From a virus: a stretch of DNA of 50,386 nucleotides. Shown in pieces: positions 4,415-12,530 of the stretch (position 1 is the stretch's first letter; each line of letters begins with the position of its first letter). The stretch spans positions 1 to 50,386 of the IMG/VR virus record IMGVR_UViG_3300021964_000107; one strand, written 5' to 3'. A program made the position numbers and the translations under genes. Below the pieces are notes generated by a model that was not told where the DNA came from, did not search any database, and saw nothing but the letters and a program-made list of their open reading frames with translations.

Positions 4415-4972
4415 ATGGCACAGAGTAAATTTATACAATCAGTTGTTAAAGCTGCAAAAGGTAGACCAAAATCTACAGAATGGTATCGTGATAAAATTGC
4501 AGAGTTTGGTAAGCCTGGTGCAATGGATTTGATACGAGATGGTAAAAGAAACAATAGACCTTTTTATGGTCGTTTAAATATGTTCTTCTATGACCCTAAA
4601 TATAAGAAAACATTACCATATTATGATACCTTTCCTTTAGTATTACCTCTGGAAAAATATGATGATGGATTTCTGGGTATAAATTTACATTACTTACCTA
4701 TGACATTAAGAATAAGGTTATTGGATAGATTAGTGGATTATAGTAACAATACAAAGTTTGATGAAAGTACAAGACTTGCAGTAGATTATAGTAAATTAAA
4801 AAATTTAAATTTAATTAAACCAACACTTAAAAGATATCTTGCTGGTAGAGTTAAGACACAGTTTCGTAGAATAGATGCAGATGAGTTTACAGTTGCAGCT
4901 CTATTACCAGTTCAAAGATTTAAGAAAGCCTCTGCATCAGAGGTTTATTCAGATAGTAGGAAGATGATTTAA
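4415..4972 (+). CDS. conserved T4-like virion-region protein
   Basis: A 185-residue protein between gp4 and the tube-fold gene; its last base overlaps the next start. Conspicuous stretches are FYGRLNMFFYDP, LPYYDTFPLVLPL and FLGINLHYLP, followed by a basic C-terminal half. I recognise it as a type conserved in marine T4-like phages but cannot assign a T4 number with confidence. The position next to gp4 makes a head-completion or DNA-end role (gp2-like) possible. No ribosome site is visible close to the start, which fits the leaderless promoter suggested at 4402. Confidence 0.7.
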   Translation: MAQSKFIQSVVKAAKGRPKSTEWYRDKIAEFGKPGAMDLIRDGKRNNRPFYGRLNMFFYDPKYKKTLPYYDTFPLVLPLEKYDDGFLGINLHYLPMTLRIRLLDRLVDYSNNTKFDESTRLAVDYSKLKNLNLIKPTLKRYLAGRVKTQFRRIDADEFTVAALLPVQRFKKASASEVYSDSRKMI

Positions 4973-5700
4973 TGGCAACTGGTTTTGGTGGATTAGTAGA
5001 TGCAGTAGCATTTGGTGCTTTAAATGAAGTTCTAGGAGAAATTCGTGGTAAAGATGGAATGTCTAGACCACATAGATATGAGGTTACTTTATTTCCACCA
5101 ACTGGAAGTCGTGGTTCTGTAGGATTAGGTAGTAACGTATTCTCTAAGATTATGGGCGAAGCACTAGGAGATGGAACAGTTCGTGCAACTGGACTTAAAT
5201 GTGAATCTATATCATTTCCAGGCAGGAATATGGATACCACAGAAGATACTAATATCTATGGCCCAGTAAGAAGCATTGTTACTGGTTTTAGTTTTGCAGA
5301 TATTAGTGCAGTATTTCAATGTTCTACTGACATGAGAGAAAAGAAATACTTTGAATCATGGCAAAGATTAAGTTTTAATCCACAGACATTTGCTTTGGGT
5401 TATTATAATGATTATGTTGGTTCTGTAGATATTCATGCACTAGACGAACAAGATAACAGAACTTATGGTGTAAAACTTATAGAAGCATTTCCAGTAAGTA
5501 TAAATGAACAATCATTATCATATGCAGAAAATACCACATATCAAACTATAGGTGTTAATTTTAAATATCGTTACTGGCAGAACTTAACAGACGAAGCAAA
5601 CTTACCAAAACCATTATTGACACGAATTGCAGAATCAGCAGTAAATACAGTAACAAGAAGAATTACTGCAAATATACCAAGTGTACTTAGAAGATTATAA
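4972..5700 (+). CDS. 54: tail-tube-fold protein, gp54-like baseplate tube initiator
   Basis: A 242-residue protein with the T4 gp19/gp54 tube fold. Shared landmarks are SRPHRYEVTLFPPTG near residue 31, GLKCESISFPGRN near 77, then a Tyr/Phe-rich region ending TIGVNFKYRYW. T4 gp19 is 163 residues and gp54 is 320. The position between gp4 and gp26 in a baseplate/hub operon, together with the size, favours gp54, the initiator on which the tube assembles. A gp19 paralogue cannot be excluded. Confidence 0.68.
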   Translation: MATGFGGLVDAVAFGALNEVLGEIRGKDGMSRPHRYEVTLFPPTGSRGSVGLGSNVFSKIMGEALGDGTVRATGLKCESISFPGRNMDTTEDTNIYGPVRSIVTGFSFADISAVFQCSTDMREKKYFESWQRLSFNPQTFALGYYNDYVGSVDIHALDEQDNRTYGVKLIEAFPVSINEQSLSYAENTTYQTIGVNFKYRYWQNLTDEANLPKPLLTRIAESAVNTVTRRITANIPSVLRRL

Positions 5701-5713
5701 AGGATGAAACATT

Positions 5714-6421
5714 ATGGCTTTACCAAAACTAAATACTCCAACCTATGAGTTGGAACTACCCTCTACTGGCGAAAAAATTAAATATAGACCATTCCTAGTA
5801 AAAGAACAAAAAATACTGATGATGGCCCAAGAGGGTTCTGATGAGAATGAAATAGCAGAAGCTATGGGTAATTTAGTAAGTGATTGTACTTTTGGGAAAA
5901 TTGATGCAAAAGTATCACCTATGTTTGATATAGAATATATATTTTTAAAAGTCAGAGGAAAATCAGTTGGTGATAAAATAGAATTAAATGTTACTTGTCC
6001 AGATGATGAAAAAACCTCTGCACCAGTTACAATAGATATTGACGATATACAAGTTCATATGTTAGAAGACCATACAAATGAAGTAAACATATCTGGTGAT
6101 ATTAAAGTAGTTTTAAGATATCCAATATTATCTGATATGAAAAATGTAAAAGCATCAAGTAATAGTGTAGACAGAGTTTTTAATGTTTTAAATAGTTGTA
6201 TTACATCTATTCATTTTGGAGATGATGTTTACAATAGAGTTGATTTAACAGAAAAAGATATCAATGAGTTTGTAGACCAATTTACTAGTGAACAATTTGA
6301 TACTATGGTAAAGTTTTTTGACACAATGCCTAAGATGCGACACATAGTAAACGTAACAAATCCAAAAACAAAAGTTACAAGTGAGGTTGTATTGGAGGGC
6401 CTTGAATCTTTTTTAGAATAG
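5714..6421 (+). CDS. 26: baseplate hub subunit gp26 (zero-frame product)
   Basis: A 235-residue protein of the T4 gp26 family (T4_baseplate). The N-terminus is MALPKLNTPTYELELPSTG, followed by IKYRPFLVKEQKILMMA and later LSDMKNVK. In T4 it is a minor hub assembly protein, and in general phage terms it occupies the place of a tail assembly chaperone upstream of the tape measure. The ribosome site is AAGGATG, 9 bases before the ATG. The frame ends one codon after a slippery heptamer (6409-6415); a -1 shift there would extend the product by a gp51-like domain to 297 residues. Confidence 0.85.
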   Translation: MALPKLNTPTYELELPSTGEKIKYRPFLVKEQKILMMAQEGSDENEIAEAMGNLVSDCTFGKIDAKVSPMFDIEYIFLKVRGKSVGDKIELNVTCPDDEKTSAPVTIDIDDIQVHMLEDHTNEVNISGDIKVVLRYPILSDMKNVKASSNSVDRVFNVLNSCITSIHFGDDVYNRVDLTEKDINEFVDQFTSEQFDTMVKFFDTMPKMRHIVNVTNPKTKVTSEVVLEGLESFLE

Positions 6422-6440
6422 GACTATCTCACGATAGTCT
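6409..6440 (+). promoter_or_regulatory. programmed -1 ribosomal frameshift signal
   Basis: The heptamer T-TTT-TTA at 6409-6415 is in the correct phase for gp26 codons and fits X-XXY-YYZ. A 5-base spacer (GAATA) follows, then an 8-bp hairpin: 6421-6428 GGACTATC, loop TCAC, 6433-6440 GATAGTCT, with one G-U pair at the base. The zero-frame stop lies at 6419-6421. The -1 frame is open from before the site to 6606. All elements of a bacterial -1 frameshift site are present at the expected distances. Confidence 0.85.
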
Positions 6441-6606
6441 GTTTAATTATTATAAAACTAACTTTGCAATGATGCAACATCATAAATATAGTTTAACAGA
6501 ACTTGATAATATGATGCCTTGGGAAAGAGAGATTTATATTAATTTATTAATGCAATTTATTGAAGAAGAAAATAAGGAAATAGAAAAACAAAAAAGACAG
6601 AAATAG
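6415..6606 (+). CDS. 51: gp51-like domain, expressed by -1 frameshift from gp26
   Basis: The -1 frame after the slippery site encodes 63 residues (RIGLSHDSLFNYYKTNFAMM..., then YSLTELDNMMPWEREIYINL and a Glu/Lys-rich tail). I read this as the baseplate hub assembly catalyst gp51 of marine T4-like phages. The 'sL-eLd-MpwwE' pattern is like the T part of lambda-type G/GT tail chaperones. Independent starts exist at ATG 6469 or 6472 (45-46 residues), but no ribosome site precedes them. The codons before that ATG (FNYYKTNFA) look like genuine protein, which supports the fusion. Next downstream are a small membrane protein and the tape measure. Confidence 0.75.
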   Translation, partial: RIGLSHDSLFNYYKTNFAMMQHHKYSLTELDNMMPWEREIYINLLMQFIEEENKEIEKQKRQK

Positions 6607-6618
6607 GGAGAGAGAACT

Positions 6619-6954
6619 ATGGCTGAAGTAACAAAAACTGTAGACCCAAAGATTGCAGCCAAAGATACGAATGGAGATGGACATATTTCTTTAGAGGAAT
6701 ATGAAATGGATATGGAATTTAAACGTAAAGAATTAGAAGATGCAGATGCAATGCGAGATGCACAACGTAAGATGGCTTGGTTCGCATTAGGTGGTATGTT
6801 GTTATATCCCTTTGCAGTTGTGCTTGCAATGGCACTAGGTCTAGATCAAGCAAGTAAGATATTAGGTGATATGGCAAGTGTTTACTTTGTATCAGTTGCA
6901 GCTATAGTTGCAGCCTTCTTCGGTACACAGGCAATGGGTAAAGGTAAGAAGTAA
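6619..6954 (+). CDS. EF-hand membrane protein
   Basis: A 111-residue protein. Residues 16-27 (DTNGDGHISLEE) form a canonical EF-hand loop with D16, N18, D20, G21, I23 and E27. A charged helix (30-48) follows, then two hydrophobic segments at about 50-72 and 82-102, and a basic tail GKGKK. It therefore looks like a calcium-binding inner-membrane or virion protein with two transmembrane helices. The ribosome site is GGGAGAGAA. It sits between the gp26/gp51 chaperone and the tape measure and shares its stop/start (ATGG overlap) with the latter. A role in DNA injection or as a holin is possible but unproven. Confidence 0.75.
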   Translation: MAEVTKTVDPKIAAKDTNGDGHISLEEYEMDMEFKRKELEDADAMRDAQRKMAWFALGGMLLYPFAVVLAMALGLDQASKILGDMASVYFVSVAAIVAAFFGTQAMGKGKK

Positions 6955-8606
6955 TGGCAGATTTCAATGATGTAATTAGTGAATTAAAAAGCAGTAATGC
7001 AGAAGAAAATCAAAGAGATAGTCGTAGACTAAATCAAGCTACTTCGCACAATCAAGACCAAGCATTAAGATTTGAGGCATTAAATCAAGCGATATCTGGA
7101 GTATCTAATCCAGTTGATACACCAGAACCAAAAGAACCAGAAATTAACAGAGGTGCTCAAGAAGAAATAGAAAAAGAAAAACTTGCTGGAGAAGAAAAAG
7201 ATAGAAGTTTACTTCAAAAAATTGCTGGTGGTATAGGTGGTATTCTTGGTAATATGAAAGACAAGGCACTTGCCGCTGGTAAGGGTTTGATGTCTATACT
7301 GAAAGGTACTTTATTTGCTGGATTGTTTATTCTACTTGCAAAGTTTTTTCAAAGTCCTATGTTTGGACAAGTGATAGATTTTCTTACTGAAACAATTTTG
7401 CCTGGCTTAATAACTGTTGGTAAATTCTTTATGGCTTTAGGAACAAGATTTATTGAAGCATTTTCAAACATTCAAGTAGAATTTGATAAAGTATTTGGGC
7501 CAAACAAAACACTATCAGAAAGATTTAGTGGATTTTTAGGATTGTTTAAAGAGGGTGGTATTATTGCAGCTGGACTTGCTGGAATTGTTCTTTTACTAAA
7601 ACCATCTTTATTATTTGGTGCATTAAAACTTGGTATCAAAGCGTTTAAAGCTGCACTTGCATTTGCTGGTGTTGGAATATCAAACCAAGCTGCAGACCTT
7701 AAAAAAAGTAAGACACGAGGTGGTAAAAAAGGTGGTTTATTAAGTAAAGCTGCTAACCTTGTACCTAAAAATATAGGTAGTAAAGCAGCTACTTTAGGTA
7801 AAGGTTTACTCAAGGGTGCAAAGTTCTTGCCTGGAGTTGGACTTGCTGTTACTGGAATCATGGGTGTGTTTGATGGTGTTAGTGCTGGATTTAAAGAATA
7901 TAATGCTGGTGGAGATGCTGGAGATGTTGCAAGAGAAGCTGCAGCTGGTGTTGTATCTGGTTTAACTTTTGGTCTTGTTTCACAAGAAACAATATCTGGT
8001 GCATTTACCACTATCGGTGATAAGTTTAAAACTGGTTTTGACAAAATGAAAGAGGACACACTTGCTGGTGTAGATAAATTAAAAGACTTAGGTGTATCTG
8101 CAAAAGAAAAATTAAAAGATGTTGCTGGTGGTTTAAAAGAAAAGTTTGATAATGTATCTGAAAAGGTTGGTGGTTTCTTTGGAGATATAAAAGGTAAATT
8201 TTCTGAACTTACATCAAAACTTCCATCTATTAAAGATGTAGGTAGTAAGATAGGTAACTTCTTTGGTTTTGGTAAGAAAGAAGAAAAAGAAATGGCTGCA
8301 CCACTTGTTCAGTTTCAAAAAGAAAGAACTGCACTTGTAGATAGAATAGCAATGTTAGAAAAGAGAATTGCAGAAGGCCCTAATACGATAAGACGAAATG
8401 TTGATAGAAATAGACTGCGAATGAGAGAAAAACAGTTAGAGGAGTTAGATAAATCAGCAATTGCAAGGTCAATGGGTGGTGATGCAGCTTCTACAAATGT
8501 TGTTGCACCTCAAGCAAAAGTTACTAACAATACTGCAAATACTAATATATCTTCAAGTTCTGCTGTTTCTAATCCAGACCCAACTTTACAGTTTGCATTT
8601 TCATAA
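6954..8606 (+). CDS. 29: tape measure / hub protein, gp29-like
   Basis: A 550-residue protein. The N-terminal 90 residues are charged and coiled-coil-like. A long Ala/Gly/Leu-rich part with several hydrophobic helices (about 115-240 and 295-345) follows, then repeated amphipathic helices (KEKLKDVAGGLKEKFDNVSE), and a Ser/Asn-rich tail. The composition and the place directly after the gp26-gp51 chaperone identify a tape measure protein. T4 gp29 (590 residues) has the same job of setting tail length and forming the hub centre. It is the last gene of the rightward operon, followed by a bidirectional terminator. Confidence 0.75.
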   Translation: MADFNDVISELKSSNAEENQRDSRRLNQATSHNQDQALRFEALNQAISGVSNPVDTPEPKEPEINRGAQEEIEKEKLAGEEKDRSLLQKIAGGIGGILGNMKDKALAAGKGLMSILKGTLFAGLFILLAKFFQSPMFGQVIDFLTETILPGLITVGKFFMALGTRFIEAFSNIQVEFDKVFGPNKTLSERFSGFLGLFKEGGIIAAGLAGIVLLLKPSLLFGALKLGIKAFKAALAFAGVGISNQAADLKKSKTRGGKKGGLLSKAANLVPKNIGSKAATLGKGLLKGAKFLPGVGLAVTGIMGVFDGVSAGFKEYNAGGDAGDVAREAAAGVVSGLTFGLVSQETISGAFTTIGDKFKTGFDKMKEDTLAGVDKLKDLGVSAKEKLKDVAGGLKEKFDNVSEKVGGFFGDIKGKFSELTSKLPSIKDVGSKIGNFFGFGKKEEKEMAAPLVQFQKERTALVDRIAMLEKRIAEGPNTIRRNVDRNRLRMREKQLEELDKSAIARSMGGDAASTNVVAPQAKVTNNTANTNISSSSAVSNPDPTLQFAFS

Positions 8607-11517: not shown

Positions 11518-11874
11518 TTATTCGTGTTCTCCACCCATATCTTGTGGGTCTTTTTCATATCTTTTACCATTATAGTAAATGTATCTGCTACGACTTGTTG
11601 TATGATAACCATCATTTCTAAGAAAGAAATCTGGTTTTCTTCTTGCAGTTTCAAATGTTGCAACTGTAACTGCGATTGCAGCCAGAATGATAATGTGTGC
11701 GATTGCAGTTACACCAAATATCCACATACTACTAAAATATGAACTAAATGCAATGCACCACATCCATGCTAGCACTTGCATTATCATATGTCTGGTATTT
11801 GTATGTGGAATGTTTTTTAATGGGTTTCTATCATGGTTCATTATAGATTCCCAAGTATCATAAATGTATTTCAT
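11518..11874 (-). CDS. two-helix membrane protein
   Basis: 118 residues from ATG 11874 (AGAGGTGAAT before it); a GTG two codons earlier is the alternative. The N-terminal 30 residues are polar. Hydrophobic segments follow at about 32-52 (MQVLAWMWCIAFSSYF) and 54-76 (WIFGVTAIAHIIILAAIA), then a basic/aromatic tail. It begins just downstream of the tmRNA, probably on the same transcript. Function unknown. Confidence 0.65.
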   Translation of the reverse strand: MKYIYDTWESIMNHDRNPLKNIPHTNTRHMIMQVLAWMWCIAFSSYFSSMWIFGVTAIAHIIILAAIAVTVATFETARRKPDFFLRNDGYHTTSRSRYIYYNGKRYEKDPQDMGGEHE

Positions 11875-11892
11875 ATTCACCTCTTAAATTAA

Positions 11893-12235
11893 GTGGTAGG
11901 TTATTCTGTTACTAGGAAACCTACCGAAACCCTATCCGATTACGCTGCTAGAGCGAAATCTTGAGGTGCAAAGTTATCGTTTGCATTTACTTAAATGAAC
12001 TATTAAGCGTTCAACCTACAATTCTCCTCTTGTCTATCCCTGCCTGTCAATCCTATTTCACCCCCATTAAAATAAGTCTTGCTTGTCGTGGTGATATGTT
12101 GTTGATACACATCCACTTAACTAATGTCTTTCTGTATTCCCAAAGTATTACTTCATCCATTTTAAAACTCATTTTGGTGGAGGTGATGGGTACTGCCCCC
12201 ATGTCCAGCCCAGTATTCAACTCGTATCAACAAAT
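11893..12235 (-). ncRNA. ssrA: circularly permuted two-piece tmRNA (ssrA)
   Basis: On the minus strand the acceptor piece comes first. It ends CACCTCC-A-CCA (12185-12175), and directly 5' of this is a 5-bp/7-nt T-arm-like hairpin (12202-12186, ATGGG/CCCAT). After a 109-base intervening segment the coding piece starts GGGGGTG (12065-12059), which pairs fully with CACCTCC to make the 7-bp acceptor stem, then GAAATAGGATTGACAGG. The tag reading frame (11984-11940) is GCA AAC GAT ... GCA GCG TAA = ANDNFAPQDFALAA, a classic degradation tag. An 8-bp hairpin (GGTAGGTT/AACCTACC) closes the coding piece. Order and tag are of the alphaproteobacterial permuted type. The two RNA ends at 12235 and 11893 are approximate. 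Confidence 0.92.
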
Positions 12236-12242
12236 TGTACTA

Positions 12243-12273
12243 TATTTATAACACATTCTCTTTGTAATGTCAA
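12243..12273 (-). promoter_or_regulatory. combined early/late promoter of the tmRNA
   Basis: TTGACA (12268-12273), 17-base spacer, TATAAA (12245-12250) makes a near-consensus sigma70 promoter. The same -10 region is also a perfect T4 late element TATAAATA (12243-12250). The predicted start near 12237 fits the 5' end of the acceptor piece. Confidence 0.75.
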
Positions 12274-12275
12274 GG

Positions 12276-12530
12276 TTAAATATCAAGTTTTTTTTCTGGT
12301 TCTGGTGGTGGTGTTTTCATGTAGTCTAAGAATCTATCTTGTCTAAAGCAGTATATTTTAGAAGGCCCATTAAACTCTCTAATGGACACTTCTTGGATTA
12401 CTCGCATATTTACTTGTGCTGTTCTTTGACAAGACTGTACAGTATCATACATCATGTTAGTAAATATAAAGTGGTCTGCTGTGCCATCACTATGCAGATT
12501 GAGCGATATCAGTACTAATAACCATTTCAT
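12276..12530 (-). CDS. small protein with hydrophobic N-terminus
   Basis: 84 residues beginning MKWLLVLISLNLHSDG, a short signal-like hydrophobic start, with two cysteines and a Pro/Glu/Lys tail (TPPPEPEKKLDI). The ribosome site is GGAAG. It overlaps the exonuclease end by 41 bases. It might be exported to the periplasm. No family recognised. Confidence 0.5.
   Translation of the reverse strand: MKWLLVLISLNLHSDGTADHFIFTNMMYDTVQSCQRTAQVNMRVIQEVSIREFNGPSKIYCFRQDRFLDYMKTPPPEPEKKLDI

Follow-up and report, generated by a model that had tools for sequence, protein, structure and literature searches.

The 3' end of the gp26 gene in the marine T4-like phage of virus record IMGVR_UViG_3300021964_000107 very probably directs a programmed -1 frameshift, by which a single start would yield both gp26 (235 aa, putative TAC-N) and its fusion to gp51 (297 aa, putative TAC-NC). 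A frameshift of this kind had been predicted from the letters of this stretch of DNA (50,386 bases, analysed as a whole and called here the window), and it now finds strong comparative support. The elements concerned are as follows.

5714-6421, + strand: gp26 homologue, short product, putative TAC-N, 235 aa (Pfam PF12322, PHROG 150)
5714-6606, + strand: predicted fusion, join(5714..6415,6415..6606), 297 aa, putative TAC-NC (sequence; T4-type gp51 architecture)
6394-6399, + strand: internal Shine-Dalgarno-like GGAGGG, 9 nt 5' of the heptamer (peak of anti-SD pairing energy; GAG bias)
6409-6415, + strand: slippery heptamer T TTT TTA, in phase (in-phase TTTTTTN in 190 of 202 loci)
6412-6606, + strand: -1 frame ORF from the slip codon, gp51-like C domain (PHROG 634, PHROG 150, 598 matching records)
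6419-6421, + strand: 0-frame stop TAG of gp26 (sequence)
6421-6440, + strand: putative stimulatory hairpin, 8 bp with a 4-nt loop (fold z -3.6; covariation)

A slippery heptamer at the end of gp26

The gp26 gene ends with TTG GAG GGC CTT GAA TCT TTT TTA GAA TAG. The heptamer had been placed in phase with the gp26 codons, and direct reading bears this out, with TTT at 6410-6412 and TTA at 6413-6415. The distance from the heptamer to the stop, previously given as 4 bases, has to be corrected to 3, that is, the single GAA codon which parts the two. In the -1 frame a stop lies 16 nt 5' of the gp26 stop and the first ATG is at 6469; from the slip codon the frame runs open until TAG at 6604-6606. 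Both an in-phase X XXY YYZ heptamer and an open -1 frame, as expected for programmed -1 frameshifting, are present. A slip after TTA would give 234 + 63 = 297 residues, the length that had been predicted, with a continuation beyond the slip site reading FRIGLSHDSLFNYYKTNFAMMQHHKYSLTELDNMMPWEREIYINLL... up to 6606.

Relatives were drawn from viral contigs (about 180 loci) and from annotated phage records. The comparison set comprised 202 loci with a readable gp26 end, or 70 representatives at 80% protein identity; the 202 loci are non-independent, and heptamer types group by branch in the tree. An in-phase TTTTTTN was kept near the gp26 stop in 190 loci and in 61 of the representatives; conservation of the heptamer across phages had been suggested as a check. 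In 171 of these 190 loci, TTTTTTA or TTTTTTC stood exactly 10 nt ahead of the stop, counted from the heptamer start. Of 14,028 other codon positions in gp26 across the representatives, 19 have an in-phase T TTT TT, and this rules out a chance occurrence at the 3' end. The 0-frame codon preceding the heptamer is AGT, GAT, AAT, TCT, ACT, GCT or GGT; its residue varies (S, D, N, T, A, G), and its third base is T in all 61 representatives bearing the site. The base following the six Ts may be any of A, C, T and G. An assembly error can likewise be dismissed, because about 190 loci, isolate genomes among them, share the identical arrangement.

The heptamer was found in Kyanoviridae, pelagiphages, one Methylophilales phage, KVP40-like and other Vibrio phages, as well as in phages of Aeromonas, Stenotrophomonas, Rhizobium/Agrobacterium and Desulfovibrio. 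The nine representatives without the site are five T4-type (Tevenvirinae-like) phages, Menderavirus IME-SM1, Vibrio phage K474 and two Ackermannviridae-like phages. Outside the subfamily of T4, nearly all relatives carry the site. When the -1 peptide was compared with 50,697 phage records, 598 matched, mostly cyanophages, and the matches listed start at residue 1, which is the slip codon.

Elements flanking the heptamer

The original prediction overlooked a third part of the signal, the SD-like GGAGGG. Across the family, pairing energy with the 16S rRNA tail forms a sharp peak directly 5' of the heptamer (mean -7.5 kcal/mol), the values at offsets of 12 to 60 nt upstream being about +1.6 to -3.9. 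Measured against synonymous shuffles, the element gave a mean z of -1.55, and control places gave 0.07. The Glu codon at this position is GAG in 40 of 47 representatives, in comparison with 27% of the gp26 Glu codons elsewhere (p 7e-17, uncorrected for kinship). Thus, GGAGGG is kept beyond coding need. Its spacing to the heptamer is 8-9 nt in nearly all representatives; in a few relatives the element is weak or absent.

On the downstream side, both the 5-base spacer and the hairpin that had been predicted were seen. The spacer is GAATA (6416-6420), and the stem is formed by 6421-6428 with 6433-6440, eight pairs including a terminal G-U, around the loop TCAC. Folding of 6416-6460 has a minimum free energy of -10.6 kcal/mol; dinucleotide shuffles gave -3.6 +/- 1.95 (z -3.6), and none of 200 reached so low a value. 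Within the branch of the window, 18 cells had two-sided changes, versus 7.3 +/- 2.0 in shuffles (0 of 500), located at pairs 14-31, 15-30 and 18-27, and sliding the partner by 1-3 columns lowered the proportion of paired cells from 83% to 30-41%. Downstream structure tested against synonymous shuffles had a mean z of -1.60 in TTTTTTA loci (control +0.26) and of -2.80 in TTTTTTC loci (control -0.47). Conservation of the hairpin across phages, suggested as a check, was therefore confirmed in part: it covaries in the window's branch and many relatives are structured, but not every branch is. In several TTTTTTA and TTTTTTC relatives and in both TTTTTTG loci, the downstream fold was no better than in synonymous shuffles. 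The hairpin as a universal part of the signal is ruled out, being shifted or missing in several branches. In P-SSM2-type phages it is different, longer and mostly invariant, so covariation says little in that branch.

Taken together, the SD-like GGAGGG, the heptamer and the hairpin make up a three-part -1 signal resembling that of dnaX. In Escherichia coli dnaX, an internal SD about 10 nt upstream, the heptamer A AAA AAG and a hairpin 5-6 nt downstream cause a shift leading to a shorter product. The window shares this order of SD, slippery heptamer and hairpin, whereas its heptamer is T TTT TTA and its predicted shift product is the longer one.

Predicted products of the two frames and their T4 counterparts

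The product of gp26 belongs to the Pfam family T4_baseplate (PF12322; 224.8 bits at a cut-off of 24.5, E 1.4e-66) and matches PHROG 150 'baseplate hub' over profile positions 5-233 (E 1.4e-70). The -1 ORF contains the gp51 C domain, as judged by its match to PHROG 634 (E 8.7e-30), and aligns with PHROG 150 at profile positions 232-277, abutting the part taken up by gp26. T4-type gp51 (249 aa) covers positions 13-280 of PHROG 150 in one ORF (E 2e-87), and matches both PHROG 634 (E 1.5e-24) and T4-type gp26 (hhalign E 2e-15, 189 columns). T4 gp51 is therefore built of a gp26-like domain and a C domain shared with the -1 ORF of the window, in which the N-terminal gp26-like domain would be part of gp51 in the predicted fusion only. 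T4 gp26 is homologous to gp26 of the window (hhalign E 1.6e-25).

In T4, genes 26 and 51 are separate and divergently placed, and gp26 has no slippery site, recoding being needless, whereas the window has the frameshift layout. From the architecture of T4-type gp51 it follows that T4 would make the short and long forms from two genes, and the kin of the window by predicted frameshift. Homologues in which gp51 stands apart and the slippery site is missing, which had been expected to speak against frameshifting, do exist in T4 and the Tevenvirinae, but gp51 there carries its own gp26-like N domain; it thus represents an alternative route to the long protein, and no refutation. A broader proposal, which we hold to be evenly balanced between right and wrong, is that the three-part signal (internal SD, T TTT TTN and a lineage-specific covarying hairpin) is the usual, and possibly the ancestral, means by which T4-superfamily phages outside Tevenvirinae control the ratio of short to long tail chaperone, for which the T4 branch swapped in two genes. 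If this is true, the classical T4 genes 26 and 51 would be the halves of a former frameshift pair.

Apparent position in the tail operon and probable chaperone function

The neighbourhood of the pair includes the following genes.

4972-5700, + strand: tail-tube-like gene, directly 5' of gp26 (PHROG 45 'tail tube', E 3.1e-33)
6619-6954, + strand: 111-aa protein with an EF-hand-like stretch (Pfam EF-hand_5, E 6.5e-4, below cut-off) and apparent hydrophobic segments (judged by eye)
6954-8606, + strand: candidate tape measure, 550 aa (weak match to PHROG 1535, E 0.0022; position in HTVC008M)

The order is therefore tube-like gene, putative chaperone pair, 111-aa gene and candidate tape measure, the last by a weak match. 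In HTVC008M, the gene at the position matching 6954-8606 is annotated 'putative tail tape measure'. The 111-aa protein had no family match above cut-off; a protein of similar size is encoded in HTVC008M at the matching position.

Given a tube-like gene ahead of the pair and, two genes further on, a candidate tape measure, and given that T4-type gp51 is composed of a gp26-like and a C domain, gp26 and gp26-51 are most likely the tail assembly chaperones TAC-N and TAC-NC, which is the best functional reading on grounds of homology and synteny. The parallel with lambda-type tail chaperones, drawn in the original prediction, is supported by the profile matches and by the N+C build of T4-type gp51. 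In lambda gpG/gpGT and its kin there is likewise a short product and a longer -1 fusion from one start, with slippage close to where the first ORF terminates and with tail tube and tape measure genes alongside; the likeness to the window is one of predicted layout. The window differs in its T TTT TTN heptamer and in a three-part signal with an internal SD-like element.

One may ask whether the frameshift is real while the two products are T4-specific hub assembly factors, outside the tail assembly chaperone class. The T4 literature indeed groups gp26 and gp51 as hub assembly chaperones, gp51 being 'of unknown function' (PMC3004832), and structure gives no significant link to the HK97 TAC: in Foldseek, 2ob9 aligned with the gp26 model at a non-significant E of 3-4.3 (TMt 0.36-0.39). 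The predicted gp26 structure (pLDDT 87) had no significant match in the PDB, sequence searches of the PDB gave no match, and the best matches of the model among viral structures were further baseplate hub proteins of the gp26-like kind. For T4-type gp51, modelling gave a poor result (pLDDT 57). Against this stand the predicted two-form logic and the apparent place in the tail operon, both as in TACs, the N+C composition of T4 gp51, and the title of Vladimirov et al. 2022, which identifies TAC genes of T4-like phages. We thus consider an exclusively hub-related role unlikely, and retain the assignment to TAC-N and TAC-NC.

Proposed entry into the -1 frame

The proposed mechanism would start with a ribosome translating gp26 that pauses at TTT TTA, aided both by the hairpin, 5 nt downstream, and by 16S rRNA pairing with the GGAGGG that lies 9 nt upstream. 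From TTT-TTA the tRNAs in the P and A sites would slip to TTT-TTT, and the gp51 domain would then be read in the -1 frame from AGA (6415) onwards; ribosomes that do not slip would terminate one codon later, at TAG. The short and long forms would most likely pair as a chaperone readying the tape measure for tube polymerisation. The comparative data show that the three parts are conserved, that the -1 frame is coding and that there is homology to T4-type gp51; the slippage, its rate and the chaperone function are inferred.

Coding in the -1 frame was assessed in the stretch between the gp26 stop and the first ATG, with dN/dS obtained from 24 close pairs. The ratio was 0.118 in the -1 frame and 1.34 and 0.59 in the other two frames; for reference, it was 0.105 in the gp51 core and 0.196 in gp26. 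In the -1 frame, the slip codon is precisely where homology to gp51 begins, and all -1 ORFs are open, apart from six cut by contig ends. These results agree with the earlier claim that the gp51-like domain is continuous with the codons between the slip site and the first ATG, and they are strong comparative evidence that the -1 frame would be translated from the slip site, and not from ATG 6469.

The conventional reading, in which gp51 is an ordinary separate gene starting at ATG 6469 or by re-initiation and the T run is incidental, is very improbable in the light of the same data. It is the one implied by the public records examined, which either omit gp51 or list it as a small gene of its own whose start is arbitrary; no joined gp26-gp51 CDS was present in the annotated phage records examined. 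An ATG 15 nt past the heptamer start, adjoining the stop, occurs in 37 of 101 loci, and KVP40-like phages have a TAATG overlap, so in some relatives re-initiation could add unfused gp51. However, the pre-ATG codons are constrained in the -1 frame, the start position is unconserved, and an SD-like sequence precedes the first -1 ATG in just 2 of 101 loci, as against 62 of 96 for the gp26 ATG. A separate gene would also leave the invariant in-phase heptamer, the SD-like element and the hairpin unexplained.

Transcriptional slippage, with one extra U incorporated by RNA polymerase at the T6 run, would result in an equal fused frame and an identical product, and the run is lengthened to T7-T8 in HTVC008M-type phages, but it stays at six Ts in most loci, which is usually too short for efficient polymerase slippage, and codon phase, internal SD and spaced hairpin would all be needless, so that we give this possibility hardly any weight.

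Relation to previous work

The original prediction regarded such a frameshift as undescribed for T4-type gp26/gp51, which is probably wrong. According to later papers (PMC10885494, PMC12846349), the TAC genes of T4-like phages were identified by Vladimirov, Gautam and Davidson in 2022 (Virology 566:9-15). The title of that article suggests a mechanism other than frameshifting, and the paper on phage Adele cites it for poly-T slip sites known in TAC-N genes of T4-like phages (PMC12846349). As far as the title and these citations tell, the genes are apparently the same as those discussed here, with poly-T slip sites in some phages and a separate long gene in others. Hence, it is very likely that the core finding, the TAC link and the poly-T slip sites in T4-like TAC-N, has already been published, and the novelty of our results is modest; the SD-like element, the covarying hairpin and the wide spread across phages may be additions to it. 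In Vandenendeviridae and Andersonviridae, which are other virus families, the TAC genes have a conserved -1 frameshift with a poly-T (GTTTTT) at the TAC-N end, like the window; here the likeness concerns the frameshift arrangement (PMC12846349).

Reading gp51 as the frameshifted end of gp26 would correct the annotation and give a likely role to the 'hub assembly catalyst' gp51. This group's cyanophages and pelagiphages count among the ocean's most abundant viruses, and the short-to-long chaperone ratio is open to direct test in cultured P-SSM2, S-RSM4, KVP40 and HTVC008M.

Variant loci and other observations

A few loci depart from the common arrangement. In Menderavirus (Stenotrophomonas phage IME-SM1, locus L087, 2240-2420), GAT TTT TCG GCT GAT G is followed by the gp51-like domain in the +1 (or -2) frame, past which the 0-frame gp26 continues; this gp26 region is common to 16 Stenotrophomonas records. 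A +1/-2 frameshift in place of the -1 is possible there. The Ackermannviridae-type gp26 genes (Mooltan, L199, 2238-2400; L203, 2301-2465) are followed by an open -1 frame extending 161 nt past the stop, without a TTTTTT heptamer. In Pelagibacter phage Mosig (L194, 1497-1530) the 0-frame stop comes 31 nt past the heptamer start; gp26 therefore extends across the hairpin region into the -1 ORF, and the overlap is coding in two frames. In Vibrio phage K474 (L090, 2200-2410) gp26 ends with ACG CTT TTT GCG TAATGATGG and a small gp51-like ORF begins at the stop, an apparent loss of the slip site with stop-start coupling instead.

A separate observation is a permuted tmRNA gene of alphaproteobacterial type on the minus strand of the window (11849-12277; Rfam RF01849, 106 bits, and RF04321, 102 bits), for which ARAGORN gave the tag ANDNFAPQDFALAA. 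It points to a SAR11-like host and to a ribosome-rescue RNA carried by the phage.
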